From positions 62,001 through 126,000 of the forward strand of contig JAIUOW010000006.1 in the NCBI GenBank assembly GCA_020161775.1: DNA of 64,000 nucleotides, read 5' to 3'. The position numbers and the translations under genes were made by a program. This document shows positions 8,571-15,693 of the stretch, one piece after another. Source of the stretch: Pseudomonadota bacterium (GTDB taxonomy: Bacteria; Pseudomonadota; Gammaproteobacteria; Burkholderiales; Burkholderiaceae_C). Position 1 is the first letter of the stretch, and each line of letters starts with the position of its first letter. Under the pieces are notes generated by a model that saw only the letters and a list, made by a program, of their open reading frames with translations, did no database searches and had not been told where the DNA came from.

Positions 8571-10084
8571 GCGTGCGGCTGAAGATCGCGCTGACCATCC
8601 TGCTGGCGGGCCTGCTCACCGCCATTGGCGTGCTGGTAACGGTGGTGCTGGCGTTCCAGCGGTTTGAATACGAATCGGTCTACCAGCGCGCCAACGCCTT
8701 CCTGCAACGCGTCGCGCAGCAACACCCCGAGCTGCTGGAATCGCACCGCAACGCGCCCGACCAGGTGGCGGCATTCCTGCGCAACCTGGTGCTGTACGAG
8801 CCCGGCGTGCGCCTGTACCTGCTGGACGCCCAGGGTGCGGTGCTGGCCGCGTCGGGTGACGTGAGCCTGCCGCCCGGCTACCGCGTGCCCATGGCGCCGG
8901 TGCGCCAGGCCGCCGGCGCCAGCCCCGTCACCTACGTCATGGGCACCGACCCGGCTGACCCGGCCAAGCCCGCCGTGGTGGCGGCGCGGCCACTGCGCCA
9001 GCAGTCGATCCGCCCCGACGCGGCGGTGGACGGCTTCCTGTATTTCGTGTGCCAGCCTATGCCGTTCAGCGCCGAGCGCGTGGCCACACTGCGCGGCACG
9101 CTGGCACAACCGGGGCTCATGATGATCCTGGTGCTGGTGGTGGGCATGGCGGTGCTGGCAGCCTGGGTCACGGCCACCGTCACGCGGCCGCTGGCGCGCC
9201 TGACCGCCGCCGTGGACGACGTGACGCGCGACGGGCTGGACGGGCCTGCCGCCACGGCGCCTCTGCCTGCGCTGGCCCTGGTGCCCGGCACCGAGGCGCG
9301 CGATGAATTCGGCCAGCTGGCGCGCGGCATGCAGGCCATGCTGCAGACGCTGCGCAGCCAGTGGGCCACGCTGCGCCGGCTGGACCACTTTCGCCGCGAA
9401 GGCGTCAGCAACCTGTCGCATGACCTGCGCTCGCCGCTGACGGCCACCACGGCCTGCCTGGAAACACTGGACAACCGCTGGGCCGATCCGCAACGCGCAG
9501 CAGACGCCACGGGCGACCGCGAACTGATCAGCGTGGCGCTGCGCAACACCCGCAACGCCGCCCGCCTGGTGCAGGCCATGGGCGACCTGGCCCAGCTGGA
9601 CGAGCCCGCATTCAAGCTGCGCCCCGAAGCGCTGGCGCTGGACGACCTGCTGAACGACGTGGCCATGCGCTTTGCCGCGCGCGCCCAGGCCCAGGGCGTG
9701 ACGCTGGCCGCGCAGGAAACCGCGCTGCATGCGCGGGTGGACGTGGAGCTGATCGAGCGCGCGCTGGCCAACCTGGTTGAAAACTCGCTGAAGTTCACGC
9801 CCGCGGGTGGCCGCATCACGCTGCACGCGCACCAGGCCGACGGCTGGCTGCACCTGGGCGTGAGCGACAGCGGCGCCGGCATCGCGCCCGCCGACAAGCC
9901 CCATCTGTTTGATCGCTTCTATCAGGCCCGCCACAGCGCCGCACCGGCCACCGGCGAAGGCGGCAGGGGCCTGGGCCTGGCCATCGTCAAGCGCATTGCC
10001 GAGCTGCATGGCGGCACGGTGGGGGTGGAAAGCGACGAAGGTATAGGGACTGTGGTGACCTTGCAGTTGCCTGTGCGTTCCTAG
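8567..10084 (+). CDS. Sensor histidine kinase
   Basis: This 505-residue kinase starts at the ATG that overlaps the regulator stop. It has a first membrane helix (about 7-30), a periplasmic sensor region of roughly 150 residues, a second helix (about 183-203) leading into a HAMP linker, and the dimerisation box NLSHDLRSPL with phospho-histidine H285. An HATPase domain follows, with ENSLKFTP near 404 and GLGLAIVKRI near 468. With the regulator before it, it forms a complete two-component system. The periplasmic region shows no motif that tells the ligand. Confidence 0.92.
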   Translation: MSVRLKIALTILLAGLLTAIGVLVTVVLAFQRFEYESVYQRANAFLQRVAQQHPELLESHRNAPDQVAAFLRNLVLYEPGVRLYLLDAQGAVLAASGDVSLPPGYRVPMAPVRQAAGASPVTYVMGTDPADPAKPAVVAARPLRQQSIRPDAAVDGFLYFVCQPMPFSAERVATLRGTLAQPGLMMILVLVVGMAVLAAWVTATVTRPLARLTAAVDDVTRDGLDGPAATAPLPALALVPGTEARDEFGQLARGMQAMLQTLRSQWATLRRLDHFRREGVSNLSHDLRSPLTATTACLETLDNRWADPQRAADATGDRELISVALRNTRNAARLVQAMGDLAQLDEPAFKLRPEALALDDLLNDVAMRFAARAQAQGVTLAAQETALHARVDVELIERALANLVENSLKFTPAGGRITLHAHQADGWLHLGVSDSGAGIAPADKPHLFDRFYQARHSAAPATGEGGRGLGLAIVKRIAELHGGTVGVESDEGIGTVVTLQLPVRS

Positions 10085-10106
10085 TTTTCTTGTTGTTGCG
10101 TTGCGC

Positions 10107-10336
10107 GCAAGGCTGTGGGTGGGGCTGTCGGCGCTTCACTTTGGCGCCCCTCCGCTGCGCTGCGGGGTGCCCTGCGCTTCTCGCTCCGCGGGGCGGCTGC
10201 GGTCGCTTCGCAATGGCGCTGATACGCGCCATTCCATAAATCGTCCTCGCCGGTCCGCCTGCGGCGGACTCCCCCCCGCTGCGCTGCGATGCTCGGCGCC
10301 AAAGAGGCGCACCGCCAGCCCCACCCACAGCCTTGC
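10107..10336. repeat. Palindromic-ended ~230-bp element, copy A
   Basis: This 230-bp segment starts GCAAGGCTGTGGGTGGGGCTG and ends with nearly the inverse, giving terminal inverted repeats of about 20-25 bases. Almost the same sequence is present inverted at 12312-12540. It contains further internal inverted repeats (for example GGCGCC blocks) and no convincing gene. The size, ends and lack of coding potential resemble a miniature inverted-repeat element that needs a transposase supplied elsewhere. I see no clean target duplication; the bases just outside the left end also resemble those outside the matching end of copy B. Confidence 0.75.
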
Positions 10337-10399
10337 AGCCGACAGGGTTAGTGCGCTACCGGCGGTCTCCGGCAAGGCTCGTGCTGGGCCGGTGTGAAT

Positions 10400-10449
10400 C
10401 CCCTCAGATTGGGGGAAGCCGGCTATCGACCGTGCGGGGTCGGCTGGCT
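10400..10449 (+). other. Leader-like segment with two hairpins
   Basis: Two inverted repeats follow each other. The first is CCCC-TCAGATT-GGGG (10400-10414). The second is a longer stem pairing AGCCGGC (10417-10423) with GCTGGCT (10443-10449), then CGACC (10427-10431) with GGTCG (10438-10442), with a three-base bulge. About 25 bases later comes a near-perfect ribosome binding site and a 27-codon frame. This could be an untranslated RNA structure controlling that short frame. No known riboswitch is recognised. Confidence 0.4.
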
Positions 10450-10485
10450 ATAGTGGTGCGCAGGGACAGATTCAAAGGAGGCGGG

Positions 10486-10569
10486 ATGGCGGCGGTTTTG
10501 CTGAAATTGTTATCCCTGTGCGTCCGGCGCGGCGCATTGCCGCACGCCCTTGATGTGCAACGACTCTAA
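10486..10569 (+). CDS. Short peptide of 27 residues behind a strong ribosome binding site
   Basis: The ATG at 10486 is preceded by AAAGGAGG (10474-10481), the best ribosome binding sequence in the neighbourhood. The product, beginning MAAVLLKLLSLCVRRG, is half hydrophobic with a small basic patch. It may be a leader peptide, a small membrane peptide, or the start of a gene cut off by a past rearrangement. It lies between the first palindromic element and the amber-interrupted gene. Nothing in it is recognised. Confidence 0.35.
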   Translation: MAAVLLKLLSLCVRRGALPHALDVQRL

Positions 10570-10661
10570 GGATTATCGCGGGCCCCATTATTTCGCACCT
10601 CTCCATGTTATTCCGCAGTTTTGCGGGATATATCAAATTAGTCGTCACAAGGAGCGCAATC

Positions 10662-11090
10662 ATGTCTTCCTACACAGGCCTCTTTACACAGCACCTAAGC
10701 AGCGGAGAAGTTCACGGCGTTCAAGTTCGCGACACCGCAGGAAACGAGCTGTCGATTGACCCAAAAACTTATGTGTAGCGTGACGTACAGCTACCAATCG
10801 ATCAACTCCCGAGCGAGGCTGAATACTTCGGCCGTCTAAGAGCAGGCAGCAGAGCTATGCAAGTCATCCAACTTATTGCGCCAAACGAGCAGCCAATCGT
10901 AGGAGTTGTCGCGGCCGACAGCTCGGTGCGCACGTTTACGTACTCCTACGACCGCAGCTCCAAGGTACGTCTCTACGTGCTTGACGATGGAACTGAATTG
11001 CCTTCGGGGCCAGTCGCACTTCTGGACTCCAGTGGAAAGCGCTGGGAATCCAGCGAAGTTGAGTGGTACACGCTTTTCAAGCGTTCATAG
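10662..11090 (+). pseudogene. Unknown gene interrupted by an in-frame TAG codon
   Basis: From the ATG at 10662 (AAGGAG seven bases upstream) the frame runs 38 codons, meets TAG at 10776-10778, and then continues open in the same frame to the stop at 11090. The total is 142 codons. The part after the stop reads naturally (RDVQLPIDQLPSEAEYF and later VRLYVLDDGTELPSG). A restart at ATG 10857 is possible but has no clear ribosome binding site. The simplest view is a nonsense-mutated gene; readthrough or a separate downstream peptide of 77 residues are alternatives. No domain is recognised. Base composition is much less GC-rich than in the flanking core genes. Confidence 0.65.
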
Positions 11091-11138
11091 CCGCGACCCC
11101 ACGGCGACGCTTAGACTCAACGAGCAAGTGCATCACCA

Positions 11139-12119
11139 ATGAAGGTGACGCCTAACTCAAACGTAAGCAGCACAGACAAGAATTGCATTGCCTTGATAAC
11201 CGATATACCCGCTCCAGCAGACTTTGAGGCAACAGCAGTCTCCCTCCTAAATTTGGCTTGGGATACTGTGTCGTCGCTTTCCCATCATGTGGAAAGGTCC
11301 GAGCTCGAAGCTTGGGATGAATGCGGCGAGGTCACCGATGAATACTGGGCCGCAGCACAGAAACCACTTGGAAACGCCCAGGCACTGATTCAGCAAGGGG
11401 TAGAGTTCCTGTTGAAGGCAAGAATTGCTGAAGTGAGTCCGTTTCTCCTGCTAGACCGAGCGGTGCGAGAATGGCCCAAAGAATCAGCGACGCGAGATAC
11501 GAAGTACACCGAGTTCAGGACGGTCGACGCCCAAGATTTGGTGCGGCTGTTCAACACCGTTCGCCCGACACCGCTCGACACCGCCTTTGTCCAGCGCATC
11601 GAAGAACAACGGAAAACACGGAACACGTTCATTCACTCGGTGGACAAGTCATTGAAGCACGATCCTCAAACTTTGTGGAGAACAATTCTCGATGTTTCGC
11701 ATCATTTGATAGGGCCCGCGAAGTGGATTGGACTGCGCCGCGCGTACCTCGAATCGACGCCGGCGTCGATAGCTTTCAGCACTGACGAGGTTTTTATAGA
11801 GCTAGCTTGGGAATGCAGTGAGTTGCTCGAAATGCTAAAGCCAGCGGAGCAAGAGCTTTATCTAGGAATTCTTCCAAAGGCCCGCCGTTACATCTGTTAT
11901 CGCTGTGCCCTGGAATGTCGCGAGGTTGGCATCCAACCGGAGATGGCGCAGTTGCAGCCGAATGATCCCACCTCCACCAATGTGTACTGTTTCATGTGCG
12001 GGCATACCCAGGCGGTGGACCGCGTACCCTGCGCATCTGCGGGTTGCAAGGGCAATGTGATCGAAGCCCACGACGGTGTATGTCTGACGTGCTTTTCAGA
12101 CCAGCCTCCCAAGGATTGA
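11139..12119 (+). CDS. Large unknown protein with HEPN-like motif and two zinc ribbons
   Basis: This 326-residue protein is not one I recognise as a named family. A helical middle part contains RNTFIH (R161-H166), which fits the R-x4-H motif of HEPN ribonucleases. The C-terminus has four cysteine pairs (C253/C256, C284/C287, C298/C303, C315/C318), which would form two zinc ribbons. HEPN proteins are often RNA-cutting toxins or defence effectors; zinc ribbons bind nucleic acid or proteins. The gene lies between two inverted copies of a mobile-looking repeat, in visibly lower-GC DNA (a sampled 60-base stretch was 48% GC). The HEPN call rests on one short motif and should be treated as tentative. 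Confidence 0.7.
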   Translation: MKVTPNSNVSSTDKNCIALITDIPAPADFEATAVSLLNLAWDTVSSLSHHVERSELEAWDECGEVTDEYWAAAQKPLGNAQALIQQGVEFLLKARIAEVSPFLLLDRAVREWPKESATRDTKYTEFRTVDAQDLVRLFNTVRPTPLDTAFVQRIEEQRKTRNTFIHSVDKSLKHDPQTLWRTILDVSHHLIGPAKWIGLRRAYLESTPASIAFSTDEVFIELAWECSELLEMLKPAEQELYLGILPKARRYICYRCALECREVGIQPEMAQLQPNDPTSTNVYCFMCGHTQAVDRVPCASAGCKGNVIEAHDGVCLTCFSDQPPKD

Positions 12120-12311
12120 TCCGTGGCGCCGGTGCCTAACAGCCCTATATGGAATCCCCCTCAACGGCAAGAGGCTGATCGATAGATTGGCTGTTTGGGA
12201 AACACCGGCCGTCGTATATCCGGCATCTGTTGTGGGATCGAATGCGTCCCGTTCCGACATGGAGTCTGCGTCACCCAAGCGCCCGTCGGTGGCACACCAA
12301 CCTCGCCGACT

Positions 12312-12540
12312 GCAAGGCTGTGGGTGGGGCTGTCGGCGCGCCTCTTAGGCGCCGAGCATCGCAGCGCAGCGGGGGGAGTCCGCCGCAGGCGGACCGGCGA
12401 GGACGATTTATGGAATGGCGCGTATCAGCGCCATTGCGAAGCGACCGCAGCCGCCCCGCGGAGCGAGAAGCGCAGGGCACCCCGCAGCGCAGCGAAGGGG
12501 CGCCAAAGTGAAGCGCCGACAGCCCCACCCACAGCCTTGC
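12312..12540. repeat. Palindromic-ended ~230-bp element, copy B (inverted relative to copy A)
   Basis: The reverse complement of this 229-bp segment matches 10107-10336 over nearly its whole length, with only scattered changes. The same GCAAGGCTGTGG-type ends are present on both sides. The similarity continues about ten bases past one end (TTGC..TGCGC beside the terminal repeat in both copies). It closes the accessory patch on the right. The two copies face each other, so recombination between them would invert the 2-kb segment between. Confidence 0.75.
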
Positions 12541-12693
12541 GCGCAGTGCAAGATCGCAGTCTGCGAGTGAATTCAGATGCTCGCGGGGTCGTGCACGACG
12601 ACATGTCTGGCAGGTTGTCAGCAACTCCATCCAGTCGCCGCCAGGGCCGAGCGGCCGCTATGATGCCTGCACAGATCCCATGACCGTTGAGAC

Positions 12694-13212
12694 ATGTCCA
12701 ACCTGGCCGAACAAATTCGAGAAGCACTGCGCATGTTCGCGCGCAGCGGCACGGCACCGGCGTTGATCGGAGGCCTGGCCGTGGTGGCCCACCAGGTGGT
12801 GCGCGCTACGCAGGATGTGGATTTTCTGGTGGAGGTTGAAGCCGCCGACAGGGTGCACGCTGCGCTGCTGGGTTTGGGCTATCGGTGCCTGTACCGCAGC
12901 GAAGACGCCGCCAACTATGTGCGCGAAACAGAAGGCCTGGATTTGCTGTACGCGCGGCGCCCCCTGGCGCGCCGCCTGCTGGCGCAGGCGTCTGAACGCG
13001 AGACGCCCATGGGCCGCATGCGCATCATCAGCGTCGAAGGGCTCATAGGCTTCAAGCTGCAAGGCTTTGTGAACGATGCAACGCGAACGCGCGACCTGGA
13101 CGACATTCGCGCGCTGCTGAAAATACACCGCGACTCCCTGGACATGAATGAGGTGCGTGAATACTTTGCCCTGTTCAACAAGCCGGAACTCCTTGATGCA
13201 CTCCTCGGGTAA
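12694..13212 (+). CDS. AbiEii-type nucleotidyltransferase
   Basis: This 172-residue protein has the polymerase-beta-like nucleotidyltransferase core: GG at residues 26-27 and the metal-binding pair D41 and D43 in RATQDVDFLVE. RDLDDIRALL, typical of the AbiEii/DUF6036 group, comes near the end. Such proteins are the toxin of AbiE systems or stand-alone enzymes that add nucleotides to RNA. The usual AbiEi partner is absent. It lies 153 bases beyond the second palindromic element and 574 bases from the HEPN-like gene. A functional link with that gene is only speculation. Confidence 0.75.
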   Translation: MSNLAEQIREALRMFARSGTAPALIGGLAVVAHQVVRATQDVDFLVEVEAADRVHAALLGLGYRCLYRSEDAANYVRETEGLDLLYARRPLARRLLAQASERETPMGRMRIISVEGLIGFKLQGFVNDATRTRDLDDIRALLKIHRDSLDMNEVREYFALFNKPELLDALLG

Positions 13213-13530
13213 CACCCCTGCCAGCACCCAATCAGGACTGGACCGTGCCAATGCAGACGCTGTGCTGGTGCGCGAGGCAGGGCTTCCTTTCCGGCGGGAG
13301 CGCGGCAAGGCGTCCGGGGGGGACCCCTTCATCGAGTGGTTGAGCCTGATGGAAGTGGTGCAAATGCTTTGCACCGTATGGCCGGTGCGTGACAAGCCCA
13401 TACAGGGTAACCAGTGGCGAATCTGACCTCTGCGACCTCCACCGGTAAGTAAATCAGCCCCTCGGGCGACATACCCGTTGGGCCAACCGATGACCAATGA
13501 GCGACCTGCCAAGCAGTTGCAGGAGAACAC
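13213..13530. other. 318-base gap with one perfect hairpin
   Basis: No convincing gene is present. The only clear structure is a perfect 8-bp inverted repeat, GGTGCAAA-TGC-TTTGCACC, at 13357-13375. It has no T run on either side, so it is unlikely to be a terminator and could be an operator for the downstream redox fusion gene. A short frame over 13148-13426 overlaps the nucleotidyltransferase end and has no coding character. Confidence 0.35.
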
Positions 13531-15693
13531 ATGAATATCAAGAAGACCGTCCTCGTGATCGCGGTGCTGGCAGCAGCGGTGGCGTTCTTTGCACTGGACC
13601 TGGGCCGCTTCCTCAGCCTGGATTACCTCAAGCAAAGCCAGGCGCAATTTGCCACGCTGGTGCAAAGCCAGCCGCTGCTGGTGGCGGGCAGCTACTTTTC
13701 GATCTATGTAGCGGCTACCGCTCTGTCGCTGCCGGGCGCGGCCATCATCACATTGGCCGGCGGTGCGATCTTTGGCCTGGGCTGGGGGCTGCTGATCGTG
13801 TCGTTCGCGTCCAGCATCGGCGCCACGCTGGCGTTTCTGGTCGCGCGGTTTTTGCTGCGCGACAGCATCGAGGCACGTTTTGGCAACCGGCTGGCCGAGA
13901 TCAACCGCGGCGTGGAAAAGGACGGCGCGTTCTACCTGTTCACGCTGCGGCTGATTCCGCTGGTGCCGTTTTTCGTGATCAACCTCGTCATGGGACTGAC
14001 CCAGATGCGGGCATGGACGTTTTACTGGGTCAGCCAGCTGGGCATGCTGGCGGGTACCGCCGTCTTCGTGAACGCGGGCACGCAGCTCGCGCGCATTGAT
14101 TCACTCAAGGGCATCCTGTCGCCGGCGCTGCTGGGCTCGTTCGTGCTGCTGGGCGTGTTTCCTTGGCTGGCGCGCAAGGGGGTGGAGGCAATGCAAAAGC
14201 GCAAGATCTATGCGCGCTGGCGCGCTGTGCGGCCCAACACCTTTGACCGCAACCTGGTGGTGATCGGTGCGGGCGCGGGCGGGCTGGTGTCGGCCTATAT
14301 CGCGGCGGCCGTCAAGGCCAAGGTCACGTTGATCGAAGTGCACAAGATGGGCGGCGACTGCCTGAACTACGGCTGCGTGCCCAGCAAGGCGCTGATCAAG
14401 AGCGCCAAGCTCGCACACCAGATCCGCCACGCCCGCCGCTATGGGCTGCACGACGCCGCACCCAGCTTCAGTTTCCGCGCGGTGATGCAGCGCATCCACG
14501 ACGTGATTGCCGCCATTGAGCCCCACGACAGCGTGGAGCGCTATACCGGCCTGGGCGTGGAGGTGCTGCAGGGCTACGCCAAAATCATCAATCCCTGGAC
14601 GGTGGAGGTAGCGCTGAATGACGGTGGGAAGCAGGTATTGACCACCCGCAACATCGTGATCGCCGCCGGCGCCCGCCCCTTTGTGCCGCCGCTGCCGGGC
14701 CTGGACGATGTGGGCTACGTGACCAGCGACACGCTGTGGGACACCTTTGCCAGGCTGAACGAAGTGCCCCGGCGGCTGGTGGTGCTGGGCGGCGGGCCGA
14801 TTGGCTGCGAGCTGGCGCAAAGCTTTGCCCGGCTGGGCTCGCAGGTCACGCAGGTGGAGATGGCGCCGCGCATCATGATGCGCGAGGACGAGGAAGTCTC
14901 GGCCCTGGCGCGCGACGCACTGACCGCCGACGGCGTGCAGGTGCTGACCGGGCACAAGGCGCTGCGCTGCGAGCGTGATGGCGACACCAAGGTGCTGGTG
15001 GTGGAACACAACGGCGCTGAAAAGCGCATTGCGTTTGATGAACTGCTGTGCGCCGTGGGCCGCACGGCCCGGCTGACGGGCTACGGCCTGGAGGAACTGG
15101 GCATCCCCACGCAGAAGACCGTGGAAACCAACGAATACCTGCAAACCATCTATCCCAACATCTATGCCGCCGGTGACGTGGCCGGGCCGTTCCAGTTCAC
15201 GCACGTGGCGGCGCACCAGGCCTGGTATGCGGCGGTGAACGCGCTGTTTGGCGGCTTCAAGAAATTCAAGGCCGACTACAGCGTGATCCCCTGGGCCACC
15301 TTCATCGACCCCGAGGTGGCGCGCGTGGGCCTGAACGAGCAGGACGCCAAGGAAAGGAACATCGCCTACGAGGTCACGAAGTACGGCATCGACGACCTGG
15401 ACCGCGCAATTGCCGATGGTGAAGCGCACGGCTTTGTGAAAGTGCTGACCGTGCCGGGCAAGGACCGCATCCTGGGCGTGACCATCGTGGGCACGCACGC
15501 GGGCGACCTGCTGGCCGAGTACGTGCTGGCCATGAAGCACGGCCTGGGGCTGAACAAGATGCTCGGCACCATCCACACCTACCCCACGCTGTCGGAGGCC
15601 AACAAATACGCCGCCGGTGAATGGAAGCGCGCGCACCAGCCGCACAAGCTGCTGGCATGGGTGCGCAAATACCATGACTGGAAACGCACATGA
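13531..15693 (+). CDS. VTT/DedA-like membrane domain fused to a mercuric-reductase-like FAD disulfide oxidoreductase
   Basis: This 720-residue protein joins two units. Residues 1 to about 215 form a TVP38/TMEM64 (VTT) membrane domain with several helices and the family region RLIPLVPFFVINLVMGLT. Residues about 235-715 form a class I pyridine nucleotide-disulfide oxidoreductase, with an FAD site (VVIGAGAGG), the redox pair C277/C282 in GGDCLNYGCVPSKAL, an NAD(P) site (VVLGGGPIG) and the dimerisation domain (HTYPTLSEA). The reductase resembles dihydrolipoamide dehydrogenase and MerA but lacks a heavy-metal domain. The membrane part may anchor it or pass electrons or thiols near the membrane. 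It overlaps the DUF3047 gene by four bases. Confidence 0.9.
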   Translation: MNIKKTVLVIAVLAAAVAFFALDLGRFLSLDYLKQSQAQFATLVQSQPLLVAGSYFSIYVAATALSLPGAAIITLAGGAIFGLGWGLLIVSFASSIGATLAFLVARFLLRDSIEARFGNRLAEINRGVEKDGAFYLFTLRLIPLVPFFVINLVMGLTQMRAWTFYWVSQLGMLAGTAVFVNAGTQLARIDSLKGILSPALLGSFVLLGVFPWLARKGVEAMQKRKIYARWRAVRPNTFDRNLVVIGAGAGGLVSAYIAAAVKAKVTLIEVHKMGGDCLNYGCVPSKALIKSAKLAHQIRHARRYGLHDAAPSFSFRAVMQRIHDVIAAIEPHDSVERYTGLGVEVLQGYAKIINPWTVEVALNDGGKQVLTTRNIVIAAGARPFVPPLPGLDDVGYVTSDTLWDTFARLNEVPRRLVVLGGGPIGCELAQSFARLGSQVTQVEMAPRIMMREDEEVSALARDALTADGVQVLTGHKALRCERDGDTKVLVVEHNGAEKRIAFDELLCAVGRTARLTGYGLEELGIPTQKTVETNEYLQTIYPNIYAAGDVAGPFQFTHVAAHQAWYAAVNALFGGFKKFKADYSVIPWATFIDPEVARVGLNEQDAKERNIAYEVTKYGIDDLDRAIADGEAHGFVKVLTVPGKDRILGVTIVGTHAGDLLAEYVLAMKHGLGLNKMLGTIHTYPTLSEANKYAAGEWKRAHQPHKLLAWVRKYHDWKRT

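Follow-up and report, generated by a model that had tools for sequence, protein, structure and literature searches.

The repeated unit that brackets an accessory patch in the window (the whole 64-kb stretch of DNA analyzed here) is an inverted pair of structured modules, not a single 230-bp element. Each element consists of two large hairpin modules in a fixed head-to-head inverted orientation; the empty form, with a short near-constant linker, is the usual one. On the best reading, the elements form a non-coding, non-autonomous family belonging to the bacterial order of the window. We lean slightly towards the view that these are folded-DNA elements which carry cassette-like genes and would be mobilized in trans by a putative recombinase.

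Two near-identical segments of about 230 bp, lying in opposite orientation 2 kb apart, had been reported in the first-pass annotation, and alignment bore this out: the modules at 10107–10336 (+) and 12312–12540 (−) are inverted copies with 98% identity. Terminal inverted repeats of 20–25 bases had also been claimed; this length holds for the perfect outer 21 nt, while the full imperfect repeat of each module copy is 42 nt long and 88–90% complementary. The 21-mer GCAAGGCTGTGGGTGGGGCTG occurred four times in the 64-kb window with up to three mismatches versus no occurrence in 100 shuffles. Complementarity between the arms of the pair was 98% for 10096–10276 and 12371–12551 and 88% for 10272–10365 and 12283–12376. 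The modules are non-coding, as the annotation had it, and its description of a lower-GC interior with a broken gene and a large unknown protein also held (G+C content of 0.552 between the modules versus 0.671 in the flanks). A histidine kinase gene adjoins the element of the window; a simple gene caller missed it, and the gene-orientation counts made with that caller were therefore left out. The features are as follows.

10097–10106, no strand: outer extension of the left arm, with GCGC ahead of GCAAGG.
10107–10336, + strand: left structured module A, with 42-bp terminal inverted repeats and a branched head.
10168–10298, + strand: conserved branched head of the left module, scoring 116 bits with model R2, in which window sequences are included.
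10337–10365, + strand: inner tail of the left module, common to the right copy and partly to other copies in the genome.
10366–12282, no strand: cargo region, G+C content of about 0.55.
10662–11090, + strand: broken ORF 1, 142 codons including one in-frame TAG, with AAGGAG upstream.
11139–12119, + strand: ORF 2, 326 aa, no assigned family.
11150–11156, + strand: GCCTAAC box, some 60 bp downstream of the ORF 1 stop and within the opening codons of the called ORF 2.
12134–12140, + strand: GCCTAAC box, some 15 bp downstream of the ORF 2 stop, a possible decayed attC.
12283–12311, − strand: inner tail of the right module, counterpart of the left inner tail.
12312–12540, − strand: right structured module A', inverted and 98% identical to the left one.
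12350–12479, − strand: conserved branched head of the right module, 121 bits with the same model R2.
12541–12551, no strand: outer extension of the right arm.

A search of the window's own genome and of related genomes recovered a discrete repeat with defined ends and many copies. A BLAST search of its own genome with one module as query yielded 21 matches, corresponding to 15 modules and one terminal-repeat remnant. In five elements (C1, C9, C12, C20, and C21), a short linker joins an A module to an inverted B module, the B modules having the same head as A and different terminal repeats. A sixth element of this plan, C18, has its A module deleted down to repeat remnants; in C22 the B module is reduced to a remnant, and C27 is an A module alone. 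Model R2 detected 40 heads in this genome, of which 28 formed 14 inverted pairs and 12 had no detected partner. These 40 heads, together with the copies in related genomes, ruled out a local duplication as the whole explanation. The head-to-head gaps were 122–129 bases in eight pairs, 154–155 in five, and 2051 in the window; since all others fall within 122–155, the window pair is the sole loaded pair detected in its genome.

The same order was found in other genomes. In the three genomes examined closely, neighboring heads less than 2.5 kb apart stood in plus/minus order in 40 of 41 cases (13/13 in G118, 13/14 in G005, and 14/14 in the window's genome, G000), and 26 of 37 heads in both G118 and G005 belonged to pairs. 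Gaps of 120–130 accounted for 29 of 51 module pairs from several genomes, the window included, a set that still counts one false pair (L116, overlapping matches with a gap of −17) and from which redundant loci were taken out by hand, without checking every locus pair. The copies of genome G096 follow the same A–linker–B plan with terminal repeat sequences of their own and at different sites. Near-identical copies, many per genome, were found at unrelated sites.

The modules are strongly structured. Compared with shuffled sequences, one module folded as RNA gave a z-score of −9.6, and one module folded as DNA (the other strand) gave −10.7. Compensatory changes were seen in 27 of the 82 predicted pairs among 15 modules of the window's genome. 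Heads from many genomes, 128 in all and 124 of them distinct, were also aligned: 93.1% of cells were paired versus 72.5% after shuffling, two-sided changes affected 551 cells versus 169, and 26 of 29 pairs showed such a change versus 19.0; slid controls were 39–55% paired. This alignment was fitted with the structure model and therefore leans towards that structure.

RNA folded from one strand is expected to tolerate G-U but not A-C pairs. With all pairs counted, G-U exceeded A-C both in the 124 heads (159 versus 72) and in the 14 distinct modules of the window's genome (46 versus 18). One head pair, however, is nearly always T-G (105/123), and its omission leaves 54 G-U versus 72 A-C; without three constant wobble pairs, the modules of the window's genome have 7 versus 18. 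The constant T-G pairs are strand-asymmetric. Because the variable pairs show no excess of G-U over A-C, the constraint on the modules looks to act at the DNA rather than the RNA level, the constant wobble pairs being left out. Wobble drift would be expected of a transcribed RNA; its lack points instead to DNA in cruciform or hairpin form, or to palindromes corrected by template switching, a process from which the covariation, too, could partly come. A search of Rfam with window positions 9000–14000 (E up to 1) gave no family at the gathering score and one sub-threshold match, which lay elsewhere.

The family was searched for at several taxonomic depths. The BLAST query found matches in 25 of the 150 family genomes searched, with five candidates scored per genome and many of the matches short, and model R1 matched in 14 of 150 (22 candidates scored). 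Model R2, applied with stricter filters and 19 candidates scored per genome, matched in 40 genomes of a sample of 200 from the order. These 40 carry 19 different family labels, and 28 of them had two or more matches; single weak matches may be false, as in L126, where the second match lay inside a coding sequence and was left out of the cargo pairs. The whole-genome searches with R2 were confined to the order. A pattern scan of named genomes gave at least 115 loci; among the 80 listed were metagenome-assembled Burkholderiales, including Ideonella, Rubrivivax, Aquincola, and Rhodoferax. Of ten pattern matches outside Burkholderiales, R2 recovered none with E allowed up to 1, and a module searched against plasmid and phage DNA found no match.

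The window pair had been thought to bracket accessory DNA, and this is supported by 15 further pairs with foreign-looking cargo, whose head gaps start at 446. Six of them are in G118, three in G005, one in G502, one each in G609, G641, and G654, and two in G722. This total includes G005:C1 (L054/L317), whose right head is weak (E of 0.17 and 0.043) and was missed in another head search. The loaded share of pairs was 6/13 in G118 and 1/14 in the genome of the window. Within loaded pairs the two modules were 56–98% identical (head plus 40 bases on each side). The interior had a lower G+C content than the flanks in all 16 cargo pairs, the window included; 18 default linkers of G118 and G005 are also low (0.47–0.68), so the lower G+C content of the cargo is supportive rather than conclusive. 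When empty and loaded pairs of G118 were compared by eye, cargo seemed to take the place of the linker core, with a few bases adjoining each module kept.

The cargo is mostly one or two small genes, with ORFs of about 60–330 aa (chosen by length, by eye). Four cargo proteins scanned against families gave no transposase and no confident match, apart from weak HNH-type hits of a G118 protein (PADLOC PtuB, 4.8e-5; Pfam HNH_5, 0.035). The cargo protein of L316 had no match among plasmids. The 326-aa protein of the window had no Pfam match with an E of 0.1 or below and none in a PADLOC scan; its one NCBIfam match was far below threshold, its best hit in a PDB sequence search had an E of 0.95, and its AlphaFold model was uninformative (pLDDT of 37.5). 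An RNTFIH motif in the protein is HEPN-like, a resemblance that no search supported. Its relatives, with 25–35% identity, were found in 19 plasmid records of Alpha- and Gammaproteobacteria and in none of 273 other genomes drawn from its class; the protein was therefore probably acquired horizontally.

Several observations connect the cargo with integrons. Relatives of the HNH cargo of G118, the only cargo tested for membership in cassette arrays, were present in 13 of 298 other genomes of the family, at 14 loci. In G502 such a relative, with one stop, lies again between plus and minus modules, and in G117 one module stands beside it; five attC sites make up the array in which it lies in G540, and sites resembling attC stand on either side of it in G559, so this cargo family does occur in attC arrays. 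The remaining 10 of the 14 loci had neither a module nor a flanking attC. Perfect GCCTAAC/GTTAGGC boxes numbered three in 11 cargo interiors versus 0.48 expected (0/300 shuffles as high) and zero in 27.7 kb flanking cargo loci; for a looser box the excess was weak (27/300 shuffles as high). Perfect boxes occurred singly in the window and in L384, and the single box found in five later cargo loci, in L434, lay inside its ORF and was counted as no support.

Both perfect boxes of the 64-kb window are in the cargo, shortly after ORF stops. The one at 11150–11156, which resembles an integron attC R'' box, precedes the point at which the plasmid matches to ORF 2 start (residues 8–19). The possible decayed attC at 12134 folds weakly (z of −1.4; 21/200 shuffles equally good), and a complete attC site was found in none of 10 cargo pairs and not in L384, which leaves it plausible but unproven that the window cargo came from an integron. 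The cargo may represent two former integron-type gene cassettes, the first of which is now broken.

As to how the elements spread, the modules would form cruciforms by extrusion or fold up when single-stranded, and a trans-acting recombinase would recognize the folded modules and move the element together with the DNA between them. With modules 98% identical, homologous recombination between them could also invert the cargo. We favor the recombinase because whole near-identical pairs at unrelated sites carry unrelated cargo. The genus mates of G096 lacked clean synteny and gave no pair of occupied and empty sites. Complementarity between locus-specific outer flanks, apparent by eye, was rejected: among 19 elements, matched flanks scored 4.55 versus 4.86 for mismatched ones, with 3978 of 5000 permutations as high.

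Rather unlikely, though to be weighed seriously, is that the modules are sedentary structured intergenic DNA, resembling terminators or nucleoid or gyrase sites, which spreads slowly by conversion and whose stems are kept by palindrome correction, while something else, for example an integron integrase using a secondary site, put foreign cassettes into some of the modules. Many G096 copies do have a gene stop no more than about 110 bp away, and 7 of 16 copies are placed between convergent genes (according to a crude gene caller); the two-sided changes, with wobble drift lacking, fit palindrome correction, and relatives of the cargo are present in integrons. Nevertheless, the linker core appears by eye to be replaced by cargo and not split, and near-identical copies at unrelated sites with constant spacing suggest copying of whole pairs.

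The first-pass annotation had taken the segments for miniature elements moved by a transposase encoded elsewhere, which as a rival reading would make them ordinary MITEs flanking the segment as a composite transposon of a DDE transposase. Terminal inverted repeats, the lack of a gene, multiple copies, and cargo between inverted copies would all suit such elements. However, no target duplication at fixed offsets was found in 34 elements of three genomes (11, 7, and 16), with boundaries set by motif and with the reservation that old copies can lose duplications; this argues against a DDE transposase. The single fixed orientation of the pairs and the conserved branched fold with compensatory changes in its stems point the same way, and we consider the MITE reading improbable.

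REPINs are grouped with REPs and BIMEs and with REP-associated tyrosine transposases (RAYTs). REPIN-like elements moved by such an enzyme would account for intergenic inverted hairpin pairs with genome-specific sequences and no target duplication, and one Y1 transposase match each was found in 10 of 14 genomes searched, including that of the window, G021, G105, and G088. Among these 14 genomes, Y1_Tnp (PF01797) was unmatched in the element-rich G096, G098, and G118, as well as in G108, and for its lack in the three element-rich genomes RAYT was rejected as the mobilizer; moreover, modules of about 230 bp without a GTAG-headed short palindrome at their ends (judged by eye) differ from REPINs, which makes this origin very improbable. 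Least probable is a transcribed structured RNA or riboregulator: the strong fold, the covariation, and the few constant T-G pairs (G-U as RNA) would suit it, but the variable pairs without a G-U excess, on which it was rejected less firmly, the lack of an Rfam family at the gathering score, and the occurrence of modules as inverted pairs speak against it.

The folded-DNA elements with a putative trans-acting recombinase may be compared with several known systems. In Acinetobacter, identical MITEs flank class 1 integrons and are presumed to form a mobile unit with them (PMC10969869). Those MITEs, like our elements, are non-coding, have inverted repeats, and bracket cassette-type genes. In contrast, our modules are about 230 bp long with 42-bp ends and a branched covarying fold, target duplications were not seen, the orientation and spacing of the pair are fixed, and the cargo is usually small passenger genes, not a whole integron. 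REPs and BIMEs with RAYT transposases are described as intergenic palindromes in inverted arrangement with lineage-specific sequences (PMC2817692). These features are shared by REP, BIME, and REPIN elements and our family; the modules differ from them in being much longer, in their ends, and in the RAYT domain being absent from three element-rich genomes.

The repeats R0, R1, R2, and R6 of Pseudomonas fluorescens are likewise intergenic, with inverted repeats of 24–43 bp around a core; they are shorter (80–177 bp) and belong to another taxon, and the available part of their description mentions no passenger genes (PMC2718517). The beta-proteobacterial repeat element BRE, known from Comamonadaceae and others, is also GC-rich and usually intergenic. 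It is set apart here by its description, not its sequence: the accessible part of the report gives a repeat of about 90 bp, often in tandem, with no inverted-pair or cargo architecture (PMC3110155). Among the literature titles and abstracts listed, no description of this element was found, although one could exist under other names.

Integron attC sites function in folded form; their structure is conserved, their sequence only poorly so. Like integron cassettes, the elements have small genes as passengers and folded-DNA sites, and one cargo family is common to both; unlike them, two inverted modules flank the cargo in place of one attC per gene, and the tested cargo pairs are without a complete attC. 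We tentatively suggest, as a possibility we do not rate as probable, that the elements are a previously unrecognized class of folded-DNA gene-cassette carriers, widespread in the order, in which the paired inverted modules would be a double-ended counterpart of attC, a putative trans-acting recombinase would swap their content and spread the pairs, and integron cassettes could enter. Empty and loaded pairs are defined loci for asking how orphan genes enter chromosomes without a visible integrase. If the proposal is true, some unannotated GC-rich intergenic repeats would be explained, and many genomes of one order would carry an unannotated folded-DNA transporter of small accessory genes, operating outside integrons and known transposons.

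One module of the inverted pair was mostly deleted, with its terminal repeat left in place, on contig C22 of the window's own genome (G000) and at loci L093, L106, and L179 (G096); this recurrent loss of most of a single module is as expected of unstable long palindromes. Two elements of another genome, G005, at loci L338 (contig C15) and L344 (contig C16), had a common outer flank on the beta side and different outer flanks on the alpha side. Judging by these flanks, it looks as if an element copy had been the point of a rearrangement.

A further inverted-pair family, the second in G000, was found on contigs C2, C3, C14, C16, and C19, with weaker scores and spacings between the two heads of 122–129.

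Two features were recorded in the window:
12694–13212, small nucleotidyltransferase-like gene next to the module pair, weakly similar to NTP_transf_5 and AbiEii
13625–13707, match to the Twister-sister ribozyme, sub-threshold (23.2 bits; gathering score 34)

The ribozyme match is probably due to chance because its position falls within a coding region.

In some genomes (loci L050, L041, L384), hairpins of the AAAGAAA type were located outside the module pair, framing it; these outer hairpins resemble bidirectional terminators.
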